41,687 nucleotides of DNA from a virus. Position 1 is the stretch's first letter; each line of letters begins with the position of its first letter. The notes beneath the pieces are model-generated. The model saw nothing but the letters and a program-made list of their open reading frames with translations. It did no database searches and had not been told where the DNA came from. The translations under genes and the position numbers were made by a program. The stretch covers positions 1-41,687 of IMG/VR virus record IMGVR_UViG_3300020125_000374; one strand, given 5' to 3'. Positions 35,275-41,661 of the stretch are shown one piece after another.

Positions 35275-36306
35275 ATGGTGCGCGGTGCCTATTACAACGA
35301 AATCGACCGGTACTGCGCCCAGTGGCTTCGCAACCTTATCTCCGCGGGACACATAGCGGCAGGCGACGTAGATGAAAGAGACATCAGACTTGTTCAACCC
35401 GCCGATCTTGTCGGATATGCCCAGTGCCACTTCTTCGCAGGAATCGGCGTCTGGAGCGAAGCGCTCCGGCTCGCGGGATGGCCGGACGATCAGCCAGTCT
35501 GGACCGGAAGCTGCCCCTGCCAGCCGTTCAGCACCAGCGGGCGGCGCAAAGGGCATGAGGACGAGCGCCACCTATGGCCGGCTTGGTTCGGGCTCATCCG
35601 CGAGTCGCTCCCTGTCGTGTGCTTTGGCGAGCAGGTTGCAGACGGTGACGGAGAAGCTTGGCTCGACCATGTGGGAGCAGACCTGGAAGGCCTCGCGTAC
35701 ACCATCGGGGCGGTATCTGCCGCGGCATGTGGTTTCGGTGCGCCGCACGAGCGCCTCCGACTTTTCTTCGTGGCCGACACCAGCGAATCACGAGTTCGAG
35801 ATCAGGGATGTGGATCGGATGCTGGCGAGGAGAGCCGAGGTGAAGAGCAAGGGCATCAACGGCAATGGCTTCGGCATGACGTTGGGGATGGCGACCATGG
35901 CATGGCTGAGCTCATGGCCAACACCTCAAGCGCACGATGCGACAGGGGCCAGGACGCCGGAGCAGCCAGGGGAAGCGAACCTCAACGAGAAGGCGCTGCT
36001 CTCGACCTGGGCGACGCCGACCGCCAGGGACTACAAGTCGGACCGAGGGCAAAAAACGGACGCCGAACAATACGGGGAGAAAGGACTCCCGCTGCCCCGC
36101 CAGGCGCTGTTGGCGGATTCTGGTCAAACGCGCAGCTTGTTTATTGCGCGGACGAGCGGTGGCGGGCAGTTGAACCCGGCACATTCCCGCTGGCTCATGG
36201 GGCTCCCTCCAGAGTGGGACGCCTGCGCGCCTATGGCAACGCGATCGTCGCGCCGGCCGCCGCTGAGTTCATCCGAGCCTACATCGACACCAGGAAGGCA
36301 GCATGA
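35275..36306 (+). CDS. C5 DNA cytosine methyltransferase
   Basis: The 343-residue protein has the C5 methyltransferase motifs: CHFFAGIGVWSEALRLAGW (motif I, binds AdoMet), TGSCPCQPFSTSGRRKG (motif IV, catalytic Cys82), GAPHERLRLFFVA (motif VIII region) and GRLRAYGNAIVAPAAAEFI (motif X). The part between motifs VIII and X is the short target-recognition part. Methylating phage DNA would protect it from host restriction. A second gene is overprinted on nearly its whole length in the +1 frame. Confidence 0.85.
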   Translation: MVRGAYYNEIDRYCAQWLRNLISAGHIAAGDVDERDIRLVQPADLVGYAQCHFFAGIGVWSEALRLAGWPDDQPVWTGSCPCQPFSTSGRRKGHEDERHLWPAWFGLIRESLPVVCFGEQVADGDGEAWLDHVGADLEGLAYTIGAVSAAACGFGAPHERLRLFFVADTSESRVRDQGCGSDAGEESRGEEQGHQRQWLRHDVGDGDHGMAELMANTSSARCDRGQDAGAARGSEPQREGAALDLGDADRQGLQVGPRAKNGRRTIRGERTPAAPPGAVGGFWSNAQLVYCADERWRAVEPGTFPLAHGAPSRVGRLRAYGNAIVAPAAAEFIRAYIDTRKAA

Positions 36307-36316
36307 CAAAGAGTAG
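35372..36316 (+). CDS. Overprinted gene inside the methyltransferase gene
   Basis: The 314-residue protein is encoded in another frame over the methyltransferase. It starts MKETSDLFNPPILSDMPSAT, is serine-rich at first, has TWKASRTPSGRYLPRHVVSV, two SWPTP-x-A-x-D-like motifs (about 137 and 180) and ends with GGGQLNPAHSRWLMGLPPEW. I recognise this protein pattern from other phage genomes where it also lies over a methyltransferase gene, so it is probably real. Its function is unknown. Confidence 0.65.
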   Translation: MKETSDLFNPPILSDMPSATSSQESASGAKRSGSRDGRTISQSGPEAAPASRSAPAGGAKGMRTSATYGRLGSGSSASRSLSCALASRLQTVTEKLGSTMWEQTWKASRTPSGRYLPRHVVSVRRTSASDFSSWPTPANHEFEIRDVDRMLARRAEVKSKGINGNGFGMTLGMATMAWLSSWPTPQAHDATGARTPEQPGEANLNEKALLSTWATPTARDYKSDRGQKTDAEQYGEKGLPLPRQALLADSGQTRSLFIARTSGGGQLNPAHSRWLMGLPPEWDACAPMATRSSRRPPLSSSEPTSTPGRQHDKE

Positions 36317-36596
36317 CGATTCCACAACGGACAAGGTCGCCCACGTCACGCGCGCCGGCCAGACGCGAGAGCACACCTGCCACTGGCCAGGCTGCACGCT
36401 GCAGGTGCCGCCGGCGCTGTGGGGATGCAGGCCGCACTGGTACCGGCTGCCGCAAGCACTACGCAGCCGGATCTGGCGCAGCTATCGCATCGGCCAGGAA
36501 CGTGACGGCCGCCCATCGCGCGGATACCTCGAGGTCGCCCAACAAATCCAGCAGTGGATCCACGACAACTACTTCACCAACGAAAGGCTTCCATGA
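36303..36596 (+). CDS. Phage protein with Cys/His cluster
   Basis: The 97-residue protein has HTCHWPGCTLQVPPALWGCRPHW, where Cys and His residues could bind zinc, then LPQALRSRIWRSYRIGQE. The pattern is common in phage accessory regions. It overlaps the first DGR target gene (ATGA) and the previous genes, so it is part of the same operon. Its function is unknown. Confidence 0.65.
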   Translation: MTKSSDSTTDKVAHVTRAGQTREHTCHWPGCTLQVPPALWGCRPHWYRLPQALRSRIWRSYRIGQERDGRPSRGYLEVAQQIQQWIHDNYFTNERLP

Positions 36597-37012
36597 CCAC
36601 CGCCACCGCGCGCCGCACCAAGAAGACCGCCACCGCAGCCGCCGCCTCCACCGCTGCAGGGCTCCCGCTCCCCGCGCTCCTGAAGGGCGAGATCTACATC
36701 GGCGCCATCATCGGGCCAGACGGCCGCGGCGAGCACGTGATCCTGCTGCCCGGCGACCAGGAGGAGATCACCTGGAAAGACGCCTTGGCCTGGGCGAAGA
36801 AGCAGGGCGGCGACCTGCCGAACCGCGTCGAGCAGGCGCTGCTCTTCGCGCACCACAAGAAGGAGTTCACCAAGAACGCGTACTGGTCGAACACGCAGGG
36901 CGCCGACGACGAGCGCTATGCCTGGTGTCAGGGCTTCTACTGGGGCGATCAGGGCTTCTACTACAAGGACTACACGCTCAGGGCTCGCGCGGTCCGCAGA
37001 GTGCCCGTTTAA
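36593..37012 (+). CDS. DGR target protein 1 (C-type-lectin-like, DUF1566-like)
   Basis: The 139-residue protein has a low-complexity N-terminus rich in Thr, Ala and Lys (1-23), then a C-type-lectin-like domain (about 30-139) with ILLPGDQEEITWKDALAWA, GGDLPNRVEQALLF and YWSNTQ, as in DUF1566-like DGR targets. The variable repeat VR1 covers codons 102-136, almost to the stop, as in classic DGRs. The ATG at 36593 overlaps the previous stop. The domain should display a variable ligand-binding face; its target is unknown. Confidence 0.88.
   Translation: MTTATARRTKKTATAAAASTAAGLPLPALLKGEIYIGAIIGPDGRGEHVILLPGDQEEITWKDALAWAKKQGGDLPNRVEQALLFAHHKKEFTKNAYWSNTQGADDERYAWCQGFYWGDQGFYYKDYTLRARAVRRVPV
36896..36999 (+). 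repeat. DGR variable repeat VR1
   Basis: The 104-bp repeat matches the template repeat at 38173-38276 with 14 differences. Thirteen of them fall on template adenines (A to G, or A to T), one is C to T. Changed codons are 2, 11, 13, 15, 18, 20, 21, 23 and 26 of the repeat. The last 26 bases are identical to the template. Confidence 0.95.
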
Positions 37013-37038
37013 CCATTCCAAGCCGGAGGCTTTCAAAA

Positions 37039-37548
37039 ATGAAAATTCTCGACCTCTCCCCCGAGCAGCTCGCGCAAGAAGTGACGCTCGTGCTGCCGCT
37101 CTCAGCCGTGCTGCGCCTCGGCGAAAGCGAACGAGCACTGCGCACCGAGGCGCTCGCCACCGCGACCGGCGCGCGTGTGGCCTTCCACGAGGACTTCGCG
37201 CCCGAGATCGGCGCCGAATGGCTGGGCGGCAAGTTCGCCGGCCTCTCGTTGCATGAAGGCAAGCCGGTCGCGCTCATCCTGCTCCCCGGCGAGCGCGATG
37301 ACATCACCTGGAAGGACGCGCTCGCGTGGGCCGAGGAGCAGGGCGGCGTGCTGCCCTCGCGCATCGACCAGCTGGTGCTCCTGCAAAACCTGAAGCCCGA
37401 GTTCAAGCAGGAGGCCTATTGGTCCTGCGAGCAGAACGCCGACGACGAGCGCTATGCCTGGTACCAGTACTTCTCCTGGGGCCCTCAGAGCTACTGCGGC
37501 AAGGACAACACGCTCAGGGCTCGCGCGGTCCGCAGAGTGACCATTTGA
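37039..37548 (+). CDS. DGR target protein 2 (C-type-lectin-like, DUF1566-like)
   Basis: The 169-residue protein has an N-terminal domain of about 75 residues not found in target 1, then a C-type-lectin-like domain that is clearly paralogous (ILLPGERDDITWKDALAWA, GGVLPSRIDQLVLL, YWSCEQ). VR2 covers codons 132-166. The ATG at 37039 has GCCGGAGG nine to sixteen bases upstream. The two targets share the C-terminal fold but differ in the N-terminal part, so they may be displayed in different places. Confidence 0.88.
   Translation: MKILDLSPEQLAQEVTLVLPLSAVLRLGESERALRTEALATATGARVAFHEDFAPEIGAEWLGGKFAGLSLHEGKPVALILLPGERDDITWKDALAWAEEQGGVLPSRIDQLVLLQNLKPEFKQEAYWSCEQNADDERYAWYQYFSWGPQSYCGKDNTLRARAVRRVTI
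37432..37535 (+). repeat. DGR variable repeat VR2
   Basis: The 104-bp repeat differs from the template at ten positions, all of them template adenines. Changed codons are 13, 15, 18, 20, 21, 22 and 23. The end of the repeat is identical to VR1 and the template, and VR1 and VR2 stay alike for about 20 more bases beyond the repeat. Confidence 0.95.
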
Positions 37549-37554
37549 CCATTC

Positions 37555-37971
37555 ATGGCTGATCTCTTCGATCAACCCGGCGCCGCGCCAGCGGCGCCGG
37601 CCGCGCGCAAGCCCCTCTCGCTGCATAGCGATACGGACATCTACCGCGCCGTCACCGAGCTCGCGAAGTTCGTCACGGCCGCGGCCGCGCACATGCGCCG
37701 CGACGTGAAGCCGCTGCTCGGCAAGATGCTGATCGACGAGACGGTGTGGATGAGCGTGCTCATCCTGCGCGCCAACAAGGCGCGCGCCGCCGCCAAGCTG
37801 CCGCACCTCGAGGAGATCCTGGAGCAGACCGAGCTCGTGCAGGTGACGCTGCGCCTCGCGCGCGAGTGCCGCTACCTGCCGAACAAGGTGTTCGAGGCCT
37901 CCGTGCCGCTCACCGCGTCCGTGGCCCGCCAGGCCACGGCGCTCAGGAATCATTTTGTCGCCGCACCGTAG
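37555..37971 (+). CDS. avd: DGR accessory protein (Avd-like four-helix bundle)
   Basis: The 138-residue protein has a short Pro/Ala start, then helices with DIYRAVTELAKFVTAAAAHMRR, LLGKMLIDETVWMSVLILRAN, LPHLEEILEQTELVQVTLRLA and YLPNKVFEASVPLTASVARQ. This matches the Avd-type four-helix bundle that binds the reverse transcriptase and is needed for cDNA synthesis. It begins six bases after target 2 and lies just before the template repeat, in the order target-avd-TR-RT of the Bordetella phage DGR. Confidence 0.82.
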   Translation: MADLFDQPGAAPAAPAARKPLSLHSDTDIYRAVTELAKFVTAAAAHMRRDVKPLLGKMLIDETVWMSVLILRANKARAAAKLPHLEEILEQTELVQVTLRLARECRYLPNKVFEASVPLTASVARQATALRNHFVAAP

Positions 37972-38172
37972 TCGCCTGTTGCGCGAGCGTCACGGCGCTC
38001 GCGCCCGAGCATCGATCTCTCTGGTCGCGCCGCTGGCCAGCACCCTGGCCACCGACACGCGCACAACGGATACGGCCGGCCCCGCCGGCGCGTCCGGCGC
38101 AGTCGACGCGCTGAACGACCTGCCGCTCTTTGCAGGCCCTCGGCACGCCGATGTGGCAGCCGCGATCGACCG

Positions 38173-38276
38173 CAGAACGCCGACGACGAGCGCTATGCCT
38201 GGTACCAGAACTTCAACTGGGGCAATCAGAACAACTACAACAAGGACAACACGCTCAGGGCTCGCGCGGTCCGCAG
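38173..38276 (+). repeat. DGR template repeat TR
   Basis: The 104-bp template holds 31 adenines, many in AAC or AAT codons in the target frame (codons 2, 13, 15, 18, 20, 21, 23 and 26). These are the positions that vary in VR1 and VR2. It lies between avd and the reverse-transcriptase domain. The 3' end (26 bases, GC-rich) is identical in TR, VR1 and VR2 and should act with its flank as the initiation site for mutagenic homing. Confidence 0.95.
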
Positions 38277-39376
38277 GGGGAAGCGGGGCGGACTTTTCTT
38301 CCGGCGAGCTCGTCGAGGCCTGGCTCGACTGCCGCCGCCACAAGCGCACCACGCCGGCCGCGCTCGCCTTCGAGGCCGACCAGGAGGAGGAGCTCACGCG
38401 CCTCGCCGAGGAGCTGGCCGAGGGCAGCTACCGGCCAGGGCCGTCGATCTGCTTCGTCATCGAGCGCCCCAAGCTGCGCGAGGTGTGGGCGGCCGCCTTC
38501 CGCGATCGCGTGGTCCACCATCTCCTCTACAACCGCGTCGGCCCGCGCTTCGAGCGCGCCTTCATCGCCGACAGCTGCGCCTGCATCGCGGGGCGCGGCA
38601 CGCTCTACGCCGCGCGGCGCCTCGAGGCCAAGGTGCGCGCCGTCAGCGCCAACTGGACGCGCCCGGCGCACTACCTCAAGTGCGACATCGCGAACTTCTT
38701 CGTCTCGATCGACAAGCGCATCCTCGCCCGCCTGCTCGAGCGCCGGATCCGCGAGCCCTGGTGGGGCGCGCTCGCCGAGACCATCGTCTTTCACGATCCG
38801 CGCGAAGGCGTCGACGTGCGCGGCCCGCGCGATCGCCTGGCGCTCATCCCGCCGCACAAGAGCCTCTTCCGCCAGGACGGCGACCACGGCCTGCCGATCG
38901 GCAACCTGTCCTCGCAGTTCTTCGCCAACGTCGTCCTCGACGTGCTCGACCAGTTCGTCAAGCACCGCCTGCGCGCACGCCACTATGTGCGCTACGTCGA
39001 CGACTTCATCCTGCTGCACGAGTCGCCCCGGCAGCTGAACGCCTGGCGCGCCGCGATCGAGGAACACCTCGCGGCCGAGCTCGCGCTCCAGCTTAACCCC
39101 GCCAAGACCATCCTGCAGCCCGTCGCGCGCGGCATCGACTTCGTCGGCCAGGTCATCGCGCACCACCGCCGCACCATCCGCCGGCGGACGTTCAATGAGG
39201 CGCTGAGCCGAGTCGCAGCCGTACCGGCCGACGAGCTCGAGCAGACGGCGAACAGCTACTTCGGTCTGCTGCGCCAGGCGACGCACAGCCAGCGCGATCG
39301 CGCGCGCCTCGGGCGGCTGCTGCGCCGGCGCGGGCTCACGGTCAATCACGGCCTCACGAAGGCATATCAGTGCTGA
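38195..39376 (+). CDS. DGR reverse transcriptase
   Basis: The 393-residue form has all the main motifs: LKCDIANFFVSID (catalytic Asp at about 164), LPIGNLSSQFFANVVLD at about 233-249 carrying the DGR-type [IVL]GxxxSQ in place of the retroviral QGxxxSP, and HYVRYVDDFILLHE with YVDD at about 267-270. The start is uncertain. The only ATG before the enzyme domain (38195) lies inside the template repeat; the frame is open back to TTG 37955, which overlaps the avd end and has CAGGAA upstream. No usual start codon lies between TR and the domain. The stop overlaps the next gene. Confidence 0.93.
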   Translation: MPGTRTSTGAIRTTTTRTTRSGLARSAGGSGADFSSGELVEAWLDCRRHKRTTPAALAFEADQEEELTRLAEELAEGSYRPGPSICFVIERPKLREVWAAAFRDRVVHHLLYNRVGPRFERAFIADSCACIAGRGTLYAARRLEAKVRAVSANWTRPAHYLKCDIANFFVSIDKRILARLLERRIREPWWGALAETIVFHDPREGVDVRGPRDRLALIPPHKSLFRQDGDHGLPIGNLSSQFFANVVLDVLDQFVKHRLRARHYVRYVDDFILLHESPRQLNAWRAAIEEHLAAELALQLNPAKTILQPVARGIDFVGQVIAHHRRTIRRRTFNEALSRVAAVPADELEQTANSYFGLLRQATHSQRDRARLGRLLRRRGLTVNHGLTKAYQC

Positions 39377-39717
39377 CCGACTGGCAGCTCGAGCAGCTCG
39401 CCGGCGAGGCCATCGGCCTCAAGCTCTCGGGCGCCGAAAACCGTGACGCCTTTCTCTGGATCGAGGCCGAAGCGTGCGAGCCGTGGACCCCGCTCGTGTC
39501 TGACGAGCAGGCGATGCGCCTCGTAAAGCAGCTGCGCCTGCATATCGACCAGCGGCCCAACCAGATCAGCGTGCAGGACCCAGACTTCGAGGTCCTGGTC
39601 TACGCGGATTTTGACCGCGGCGACCTTGCGCTTAATCACGCGATCGTCAAGTGCGCCGCCATCATGGCGCGCAGGAAGGCACAGCAGCCCGTCCGGACGT
39701 CGGCACCGCCTCCCTGA
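39370..39717 (+). CDS. Phage protein of unknown function after the DGR
   Basis: The 115-residue protein starts at GTG 39370, overlapping the reverse transcriptase stop. It is mixed alpha/beta and polar ([22 protein letters not shown], and then the strands of [10 protein letters not shown]). It ends with RTSAPPP, encoded by a degenerate copy of the dispersed element (39691-39706). No family is recognised, and nothing shows that it belongs to the DGR. Confidence 0.58.
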
Positions 39718-39908
39718 TGAATTGCCCCATCTGCAACGGCGCGGAGAGCGCAGTGCTGGAGGTGCGCGACGGTCGGCGCCGCCGCGAGTGCACCATGTGC
39801 CACCACCGCTTCACGACCTACGAGGTGCCGGCGGAGCGCCTGGAGAAGCTCGAGCGCCTCGAGCAGCACGCGGCGGCGATCGCGCATGAGATGGAGGACA
39901 GTGCGTGA
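39717..39908 (+). CDS. NrdR-like zinc ribbon protein
   Basis: The 63-residue protein is like the N-terminal zinc ribbon of the NrdR repressor: [35 protein letters not shown], with two CxxC pairs. The ATP-cone domain of NrdR is absent, so it is not a full repressor. Its ATG overlaps the preceding stop (TGATG). A DNA-binding role is likely but its target is unknown. Confidence 0.75.
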
Positions 39909-39940
39909 GCGCTGTACGATGCGCAGCGAGGAGGCCGCGC

Positions 39941-41101
39941 ATGCAACGACGGCAACGCCCGGCGGGCGTGATCGAGAGGAAGGGCCGCTGGTACTACCGG
40001 CCGACGAGCGAACGCGAGCGGCTCGAACGCCGGCAGAAGGGCTTGCCGGAGACGATCCCGCTTGGCGCGGCCGAGAGCGTCGAGGCACGCATGAGGTGGG
40101 CCGAGCTCACCGGGCGGCGCGAGCCTGTGGCGGGTGGCCACGGCACCGTCGAAGAGCTCATCCGCCTGTGGCTCGCGCCTGGCGCGAACGGCAAGCCAGC
40201 CGCCCTGGTCGTGAAAGAAAACGGCAGGCGGCGCGCCGAGAGCACGGTGCGGCAATACCGCTGGATTGCCGAGAAGGTGCTGCTGCCACGCTTCGGTCGC
40301 ATGCGCTACGGCAAGACGGCGATCGAGGCCTCGCGCGGCGCCGCGATCGGCACCGTCGACGTGCAGGCCTACATTGCCGAGATCGGCACCACCACGGCGA
40401 ACGTGGGGACCGCCTGCCTCTCATCAATCTTCATGTGGGCGAAGCGCACCGGCAGGACCACCTACAACCCATGCGACGGCGTGGCGAAGATAATGCAAGA
40501 GGGCCGCGGCCGCGAGCCGCTCGCCTGGGAGGTGGAGAGCCTTGGCGCCATGGCCGAGGCGCTCGGCCGCCGACGCCTCGCGCTGATGATCGACTTCGAG
40601 TCGATCTCGGGCTGGAGCGCTTGCGACATTCTCGGTCTGCAGCGGCGCCAGTTCACACACGAGGGCATCCGCATGGCGCGGCAGAAGACCGGCCAACGCA
40701 TGCTCCTGCAATGGAGCGATGACCTGAAGCGCATCGTCGGCGAGGCGCTCGAGCTGCCCGGCGCGCGGCGCGCCGGCGTCTTTCCGCTGTCGCACGTCTT
40801 CGCGAGCCGCAGCGGCAAGCGCGTGAGCGGTTCGACCTTCTGGGCGGAGTTCCGCCGCCTGGTCGAACGCGTGAACGCCACGCTCGCCGCCGGCGTCGTC
40901 GACCCGCATACGCTCGAGGCGCACGAGCGCATTGCCATCGAGGACCTCGGCTTCCACGATCTGCGCTCCAAGGCGGGCGATGACGCCCGTGACGCCGGCA
41001 TCGACATGCACGAGTTCCTGGGCAACACGGCGGCGGTGGCGAATCGTCACTATGCGCGGCGTGAACGCAAGGTCGTGCCTCTGCCCCTCAAGCGCTCGTG
41101 A
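39941..41101 (+). CDS. int: Tyrosine recombinase (integrase) with altered catalytic residues
   Basis: The 386-residue protein has an N-terminal arm-binding-type part (GVIERKGRWYYRPT, GLPETIPLG), a core-binding helical domain (about 66-185) and a catalytic domain with KTG (Lys249), HDLR (His339, Arg342) and a terminal RHYARRE (Tyr371). Where the first catalytic Arg is expected (G-x-R-x-x-D) it has GWSACD with Ser226, and the usual LGH is LGN (Asn362). Start ATG 39941 has a strong GAGGAGG site; a GTG at 39905 is less likely. The gene is close to the right end repeat, as expected for int beside attP. Confidence 0.85.
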   Translation: MQRRQRPAGVIERKGRWYYRPTSERERLERRQKGLPETIPLGAAESVEARMRWAELTGRREPVAGGHGTVEELIRLWLAPGANGKPAALVVKENGRRRAESTVRQYRWIAEKVLLPRFGRMRYGKTAIEASRGAAIGTVDVQAYIAEIGTTTANVGTACLSSIFMWAKRTGRTTYNPCDGVAKIMQEGRGREPLAWEVESLGAMAEALGRRRLALMIDFESISGWSACDILGLQRRQFTHEGIRMARQKTGQRMLLQWSDDLKRIVGEALELPGARRAGVFPLSHVFASRSGKRVSGSTFWAEFRRLVERVNATLAAGVVDPHTLEAHERIAIEDLGFHDLRSKAGDDARDAGIDMHEFLGNTAAVANRHYARRERKVVPLPLKRS

Positions 41102-41661
41102 AGAACGGCTTCGTGTACTTCCTGCAGCAGGATGTCACGAACGCCGTAAAGATCGGTTACACGGCGACGGTACGCGGCGTCCAGCAGCGGCTGAACGACC
41201 TGCAGGTCGGCTCGCCGTACAAGGTGCGCGCGCTCTGCCACACGCCGGGCGACCGCCTCGTCGAGCGCGAGCTGCATGAGTACTTCAAGTCGCACCGTCT
41301 GGCCGGCGAATGGTTTTCACCGTGCGACGAGCTCATGACATTCATCGCCAAGCTCGTCGAACAGCGCGGCGCGGATCCGCTGCTGATCGTTCTCGCCGGC
41401 CATCTGCGCCGCCGGCGTCCGCGAGGTGTCATCGAAAGGAAGGGGCGGTGGTATTACCGGCCGACGAAGCAACTCCAGCGCGCGCGGCGCGCGGCCCAAG
41501 GGCTGCCGGAGACGATTCCATTGGGCCCTGCAGACAGCGCCGAGGCCTGTCGGATGTGGATCGCCGTGCGCACCGGCAGAGGCGCTCAGGCCGCCGCCGG
41601 GAAACAGTGTTACCCAGTTTCCCGAACCGAAGAAAATACGGTTGCAACCTCAAAGACTTAG
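41098..41661 (+). CDS. GIY-YIG (T5orf172/MUG113-like) protein fused to integrase-like arm domain
   Basis: The 187-residue protein has an N-terminal T5orf172/GIY-YIG-type domain (FVYFLQQDVTNAVKIGYT, RLNDLQVGSPYKVRAL, ERELHEYFKSHRLAGEWF; residues 5-75), then a C-terminal part (105-161) that copies the N-terminus of the integrase, with GVIERKGRWYYRPT and GLPETIPLG identical. The start GTG 41098 overlaps the integrase stop. The fusion may make a nuclease or DNA-binding protein that recognises the integrase arm sites. Whether the domain cleaves DNA is open. Confidence 0.78.
   Translation: MKNGFVYFLQQDVTNAVKIGYTATVRGVQQRLNDLQVGSPYKVRALCHTPGDRLVERELHEYFKSHRLAGEWFSPCDELMTFIAKLVEQRGADPLLIVLAGHLRRRRPRGVIERKGRWYYRPTKQLQRARRAAQGLPETIPLGPADSAEACRMWIAVRTGRGAQAAAGKQCYPVSRTEENTVATSKT
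41410..41580 (+). repeat. Diverged duplicate of the integrase 5' end
   Basis: These bases encode residues 105-161 of the GIY-YIG protein and match int codons 4-60 (39950-40120). Two blocks, of 14 and 9 residues, are identical; codons differ, so the duplication is not recent or came from a related phage. Confidence 0.85.

Follow-up and report, generated by a model that had tools for sequence, protein, structure and literature searches.

How would a retroelement rewrite two genes from a single template that lies within the open frame of its own reverse transcriptase (RT)? The question is raised by a cassette in the IMG/VR virus record IMGVR_UViG_3300020125_000374, which was analysed over its entire 41,687 nt (hereafter the window) and in which a diversity-generating retroelement (DGR) had been annotated. 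The DGR mechanism has been worked out largely in phage BPP-1. We consider it very probable that the cassette is a complete phage DGR in which one template repeat (TR) serves to rewrite a pair of paralogous, C-type-lectin-like proteins, and that it belongs to a subtype based on the structured RNA RT-15 and working in the way proposed below.

One template and two lectin-like targets

The protein-coding genes and repeats of the cassette are as follows.

36593..37012, plus strand: target 1, an open reading frame (ORF) of 139 amino acids, C-type-lectin-like (Lcl_C / DUF1566-like, Pfam PF07603)
36896..36999, plus strand: variable repeat VR1, with 14 substitutions relative to TR
37039..37548, plus strand: target 2, an ORF of 169 amino acids, C-type-lectin-like by AlphaFold and Foldseek
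37432..37535, plus strand: variable repeat VR2, with 10 substitutions relative to TR
37555..37971, plus strand: avd, accessory variability determinant, 138 amino acids (PHROG 3206)
37955..39376, plus strand: open frame of the RT (PHROG 1423), with the RT domain from about 38300
38173..38276, plus strand: TR, 104 bp, the sole TR in the record

Substitutions in the variable repeats (VRs) were counted with TR as the reference. The initial annotation had described two 104-bp VRs and one TR with 23 of 24 substitutions on template adenines, and both its coordinates and its counts proved exact. In VR1, 13 of the 14 substitutions fall on the adenines of TR, which make up 31 of its 104 nt (hypergeometric p = 1.9e-7), the remaining one being a C>T change at 36928 adjacent to a mutated A, and in VR2 all ten do so (p = 1.7e-6). 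No further copies of the repeat were found in the record beyond TR, VR1 and VR2. The presence of an Avd-type protein was confirmed by a match to PHROG 3206, 'Avd protein of DGR' (E = 7e-14); the match to NCBIfam DivGenRetAVD (E = 2e-4) was below its cut-off. For the RT, both motifs reported at the outset (LPIGNLSSQ and YVDD) are present, PHROG 1423 (E = 1e-112) and Pfam RVT_1 were matched, and the best solved-structure match was 8ub7, 'Reverse transcriptase' (E = 4e-34; runner-up 5e-8), which we take to be the BPP-1 DGR RT complex. By motif, profile and best solved match, the RT is a member of the DGR clade.

Target 1 matched Pfam Lcl_C (PF07603) at E = 4e-6, under the family cut-off, and aligns with target 2 at 49% identity. 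The AlphaFold model of target 2 (pLDDT 91.4) gave the C-terminal domain of Legionella Lcl as its top Foldseek match (8q4e, E = 7e-6) and also matched C-type lectins. Each VR sits in the 3′ end of a C-type-lectin-like gene, as judged by the model for target 2 and by the alignment for target 1. With adenine-restricted TR/VR differences, a DGR-type RT, Avd and two targets of C-type-lectin fold all recovered, the cassette is beyond reasonable doubt a genuine and, as annotated, complete DGR, and so a known kind of system.

Relatives were collected by RT search and comprise 27 viral-contig, 3 bacterial-genome and 9 isolated-phage loci (given L numbers below), with RT identities to the window of roughly 57–75% and a few more distant members; plasmid relatives were found only at <60% identity. 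An automatic search for adenine-biased repeats placed TR just 5′ of the RT domain in all relatives but two. Two or three VRs are present in 27 of the 32 loci with VRs detected, and contig truncation accounts for some of the single-VR loci. The lineage thus habitually has two targets per template. This is a known arrangement: in the DiGReF study, several VRs occur in about one seventh of DGRs, in paralogous ORFs (PMC3521204). In a tree of the targets, the window proteins have supported groupings with different loci, target 1 with its L004 counterpart and target 2 with its L005 counterpart. On this tree the two are old paralogues with different nearest relatives, which agrees with the earlier claim that one template diversifies two separate proteins. 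Strict one-to-one orthology of targets 1 and 2 across the family was rejected (13 tree changes versus a minimum of 2, though clustering was above chance), and position in the cassette is an imperfect label for a target family-wide.

A comparison of VRs among close relatives, which the initial annotation had put forward as a check, was possible for three pairs (L016/L017, L015/L024 and L034/L035), whose TRs differ at 0, 0 and 1 positions, respectively. All seven of the seven VR pairs differ, and 96 of the 98 differences lie on TR adenines (A-position differences per VR pair include 11, 12, 16, 12 and 17); the changes are not spread over all template bases. By this count every VR in those cassettes has been rewritten since each close pair split, and because the VRs differ almost only at A despite near-identical TRs, the lineage is active. 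The description of the cassette as active or recently so is thus supported for the lineage. The window copy has no comparably close relative, and we infer its activity from genes that are all intact and from VRs with almost no substitutions of other kinds. As a separate observation, the L034 and L035 cassettes (Shewanella phage QDWS and Burkholderia phage Magia) are 88% identical over ~2.6 kb, and the recorded host orders differ. The record of Hujiaoplasma phage zrk29-1 equals QDWS in length and RT match and is perhaps the same phage under another host name.

What the targets do is a further question. They could be receptor-binding tail proteins, as Mtd is in BPP-1, since they share their fold class with other DGR targets and receptor-binding proteins are the majority of studied phage DGR targets, but we regard this as rather unlikely. 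Both targets lie on the plus strand near the integrase, whereas the minus strand carries the genes for terminase, portal, capsid, tape measure and tail fibre (the last at 3.3–6.6 kb), and in annotated relatives, isolates included, the cassette lies among recombination, methylase, repressor or integrase genes. In addition, the targets are small, and Pfam and PHROG scans recognised no virion domain in either. Given this position and the lack of a virion domain, an Mtd-like role in tail recognition is not assured; genomic position argues against a virion role without excluding one.

RT-15 and the reading frame through the template

Three further features lie in and around the interval between avd and the RT domain.

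37970..38172, plus strand: RT-15 (Rfam RF03018), a structured RNA proposed to scaffold the template RNA from its 5′ side
38057..38059, plus strand: position within RT-15 where most relatives have a conserved AUG as RT start codon and the window has ACG
ATG 38195 (in TR), GTG 38153, TTG 37979 and TTG 37955, plus strand: in-frame candidates for the RT start in the window

The RF03018 covariance model scored 104.2 bits in the window against a gathering score of 82 (E = 1.6e-24), and the match occupies the whole gap between avd and TR, ending at the TR start. As in the window, RT-15 was found above cut-off and at the same location in the relatives scanned, the distant L027 and L028 being exceptions; its 3′ end is at most a few nucleotides from the TR start in nearly all of them, and 18 nt off in L007 and L031. 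A second locus set was selected on the RNA, by searching for RT-15 alone in 399 genomes of one bacterial family. RT-15 was above cut-off in 26 of these genomes (27 matches), and 26 of the 27 matches adjoin a DGR RT that is complete or almost so, whereas L044 has an RT fragment at this place; a single sub-threshold match had no RT. In this set, too, TR starts where RT-15 ends, and adenine-biased VRs number two or more at most loci. Rfam lists RT-15 as 'Gene; sRNA' only. A 2017 paper in NAR is said to have introduced RT-15 and similar RNAs, and no paper linking RT-15 to DGRs was found in the literature searched, which left out most subscription literature, so that we make no claim to priority. 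RT-15 appears to be the template-RNA scaffold of DGRs in this lineage.

The structured RNA of the TR–RT spacer in the BPP-1 layout (RF03022), present in BPP-1, had no match in an Rfam scan of the window, where only ~20 nt separate TR from the RT domain and leave no BPP-1-like spacer. A spacer RNA of this kind hidden in the RT 5′ coding sequence was also ruled out: synonymous conservation there is ordinary, and since synonymous variation at the RT 5′ end is not suppressed, there is no hidden 3′ scaffold in it.

In the window and across the lineage, the RT frame is open through TR and into RT-15. Neither this overlap nor RT-15 nor the multi-target habit of the family figured in the initial annotation. 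The window, like most relatives, has no ATG, GTG or TTG after TR and before the RT domain, so the RT start must lie inside or upstream of TR, unless an unusual start is used. From the RT-15 AUG position to TR, the 32 loci together have 1 stop in 1250 codons of the RT frame, compared with 60 and 53 when the same stretch is read in the other two. Between TR and the RT domain, the RT frame has 0 stops versus 15 and 2. Within TR, stops are rare whichever frame is read and prove little. The spacing of AUG position and RT domain varies, with 16 different lengths, yet 30 of the 32 loci have a length divisible by three. The conserved AUG is accompanied by an AGG-type ribosome-binding site 8–11 nt upstream, the two tending to be lost together (Fisher p = 0.003), and the annotation of phage Magia puts the RT start at this AUG. 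The second set gave 3 stops in the RT frame versus 38 and 51 in the others.

The likeliest reading of these patterns is that RT is translated from within RT-15 across TR, with later starts in some members, and TR itself appears to be translated as an N-terminal extension of RT. Several observations weigh against this. The window has ACG at the conserved AUG position, and a ribosome-binding site is not evident. L036, L049, L051 and L061 have a stop or frameshift upstream of TR and an ATG inside TR, L038 has its RT frame broken upstream of TR and an ATG downstream of TR, the frame of L065 meets a stop at the TR end, and in L026 RT begins at the TR end. These exceptions indicate that reading through TR is dispensable.

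Template boundaries and variable-repeat flanks

A possible helix around TR and short direct repeats behind each VR make up the remaining features.

38016..38023, plus strand: proposed 5′ strand of a TR-closing helix (UCUCUCUG), with family covariation
38274..38281, plus strand: proposed 3′ strand of this helix (CAGGGGGA), straddling the TR 3′ boundary
37005..37020, plus strand: two 8-bp iterons after VR1 (CCGTTTAA CCATTCCA), containing the target-1 stop TAA; proposed target-site element
37541..37556, plus strand: two 8-bp iterons after VR2 (CCATTTGA CCATTCAT), containing the target-2 stop and the avd start codon

The TR 3′ boundary (CAGAUnGAA) has its complement in RT-15, in the longest of the conserved stretches left unpaired there (consensus UUUCAAUCUG), and in the window all 8 of the 8 core pairs are possible and standard. 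Family-wide, 81.5% of cells are paired, versus 31–51% with the partner strand offset by one, two or three columns. In shuffles, which do not correct for relatedness, 12.0 cells changed on both sides would be expected, compared with 33 observed, and the covariation score was 0.310 versus 0.131, with none of 500 shuffles as high; an independent permutation also gave 0 of 20,000 as high. In the second set the value was 149 versus a mean of 141 and a maximum of 148, a small margin attributable to the close relatedness of the loci. The failure of the shuffle tests to correct for relatedness counts against the helix, as does free-energy folding, which gave it a median probability of only ~0.2 across the family and 0.21 in the window (0.84 with TR held single-stranded); the window RNA overall folds no better than shuffles. 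Thermodynamic folding was therefore equivocal as proof, and the closing helix is a prediction, not a demonstrated structure, although a well-supported one, that pairs RT-15 with the TR 3′ boundary. It would make TR a loop between the RT-15 core and the helix, the helices setting both ends of the copied segment.

AT-rich 8-bp units of the type NCATTYAN lie behind the VRs but not behind TR, usually with the target stop codon in the first unit. Self-match at lag 8 was 0.431 for the VR 3′ flanks of the family, versus 0.261 after shuffling (maximum of 300: 0.287), and 0.211 for the TR 3′ flank; VR flanks in the second set gave 0.425 versus 0.263 shuffled. Against an iteron role, the window has just two units per VR. 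In BPP-1, a hairpin after the VR is needed for homing (PMC3240598). Only 5-bp stems are found at this place in the window, and clear hairpins were seen in a minority of the relatives, more than chance predicts for the group, so a hairpin of BPP-1 type was dropped as a rule for the family. Because the iterons are absent behind TR and stand where BPP-1 has its hairpin, and hairpins occur here in a minority, the iterons are a candidate target-site mark, or they may have a role in translation or termination.

Could all of this belong to an ordinary BPP-1-like DGR, with TR merely close to RT, RT-15 an unrelated regulator of the RT gene and the open frame a product of high G+C? No layout is commoner than TR upstream of RT, and TRs that overlap the annotated RT ORF have already been described, without a mechanism (PMC3521204); moreover, the GC content of the window is ~0.7. 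However, loci of ~52–60% GC show the same pattern, stops are abundant in the other two frames, and length changes come in threes. RT-15 also ends at TR and is predicted to pair with its far end, and the window has RT-15 only, with no spacer RNA at the 3′ side where BPP-1 carries RF03022. We therefore consider an ordinary BPP-1-like DGR improbable. Linkage of RT-15 with RT, TR and VRs, the open frame, the helix and the iterons recur in the RNA-selected second set, which supports the RT-15 subtype. That the cassette is a decayed DGR, its TR and VRs fossils and its RT without a usable start, is more improbable still: ACG does replace the conserved AUG and no close relative exists to reveal recent change in the window VRs, but none of the four ORFs is broken, the substitutions in VR1 and VR2 are almost confined to TR adenines with no accumulation of others, and other in-frame RT starts exist.

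Proposed working and comparison with known systems

For the RT-15-based DGR, we infer that avd, RT-15, TR and RT would be transcribed as one RNA. RT-15 would fold just 5′ of TR, and a helix of 8–10 bp would pair its conserved unpaired stretch with the TR 3′ boundary, TR being held as a loop between two helices. RT and Avd would copy TR between the helix boundaries, misreading adenines, and the cDNA would replace VR1 or VR2, the choice depending on the 3′ end that TR and VR have in common and on the 8-bp iterons that follow the VR. The same RNA would be the RT messenger, with translation beginning in RT-15, or in TR in some members, and translation and templating might compete. TR would be translated in a frame other than that of the targets, giving RT a Thr-rich N-terminal stretch (TRTSTTATRTTTT type). 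We put at even odds the stronger proposal that RT-15 DGRs form a distinct mechanistic subtype, with a scaffold 5′ rather than 3′, a template between helices within the RT coding sequence, a single RNA serving as messenger and template alike, and target sites marked by 8-bp iterons in place of a hairpin. If true, the subtype would reveal what in the BPP-1 model holds generally, would assign a function to the orphan Rfam RNA RT-15 and would offer a compact multi-target system, which occurs in cultivable Burkholderia, Pseudomonas and Shewanella phages. It also raises the testable question of what role a pair of variable lectin-like proteins, encoded on the integrase side of the genome, has in a temperate phage.

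Outside the cassette, a probable phage DNA methyltransferase (35372–36316; PHROG 1008, E = 5e-29) adjoins its 5′ side, and methylases also adjoin the cassette in QDWS, Cruim01 and Haboob. Downstream are a small ORF (39651–39908) with an NrdR-like zinc ribbon (PF22811, E = 1e-10) but not long enough to encode a complete NrdR, the integrase ORF (39905–41101) and an ORF (41098–41661) with a T5orf172/MUG113 (GIY-YIG-like) N-terminus. The C-terminal part of this last ORF (GVIERKGRWYYRPT...GLPETIPLGPADSAEA) resembles the integrase N-terminus, an apparent partial duplication of the integrase 5′ end. In L011, L025, L030, L031 and L033, tRNA genes lie 3′ of the cassette, consistent with integration at tRNA genes.

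With BPP-1 (mtd-avd-TR-brt), the window shares the order target(s)-avd-TR-RT, the adenine bias, related RT and Avd proteins and a target of lectin fold. The two differ in where the RNA lies: in BPP-1, TR abuts avd and a 144-nt TR–brt spacer carries RF03022 (Phage_DGR), whereas the window has RT-15 between avd and TR, no such spacer, and a TR that overlaps the RT frame. The BPP-1 spacer folds, recruits RT–Avd and primes cDNA synthesis (PMC12875486). BPP-1 also has a hairpin after the VR and one target in the annotated cassette, whereas the window has 8-bp iterons and two targets. Legionella Lcl resembles target 2 in the fold of its C-terminal domain (20% identity), and the 8q4e record does not present it as a DGR target. 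Two features of the window are shared with DGRs of the DiGReF study, overlap of TR with the RT ORF (structural group 3) and several VRs (multi-VR DGRs); the available text describes neither an RNA element nor a test of the frame and takes the TR and RT RNAs as separately transcribed (PMC3521204). Burkholderia phage Magia and Shewanella phage vB_Sb_QDWS have RTs 63.5–65% identical to that of the window. Both likewise have RT-15, TR and two VRs, and their cassettes lie, as in the window, in the recombination/integrase region. The first target of Magia is annotated as a 'potential DGR target' and the second target of both phages as hypothetical; unlike the window with its ACG, both keep the RT-15 AUG.

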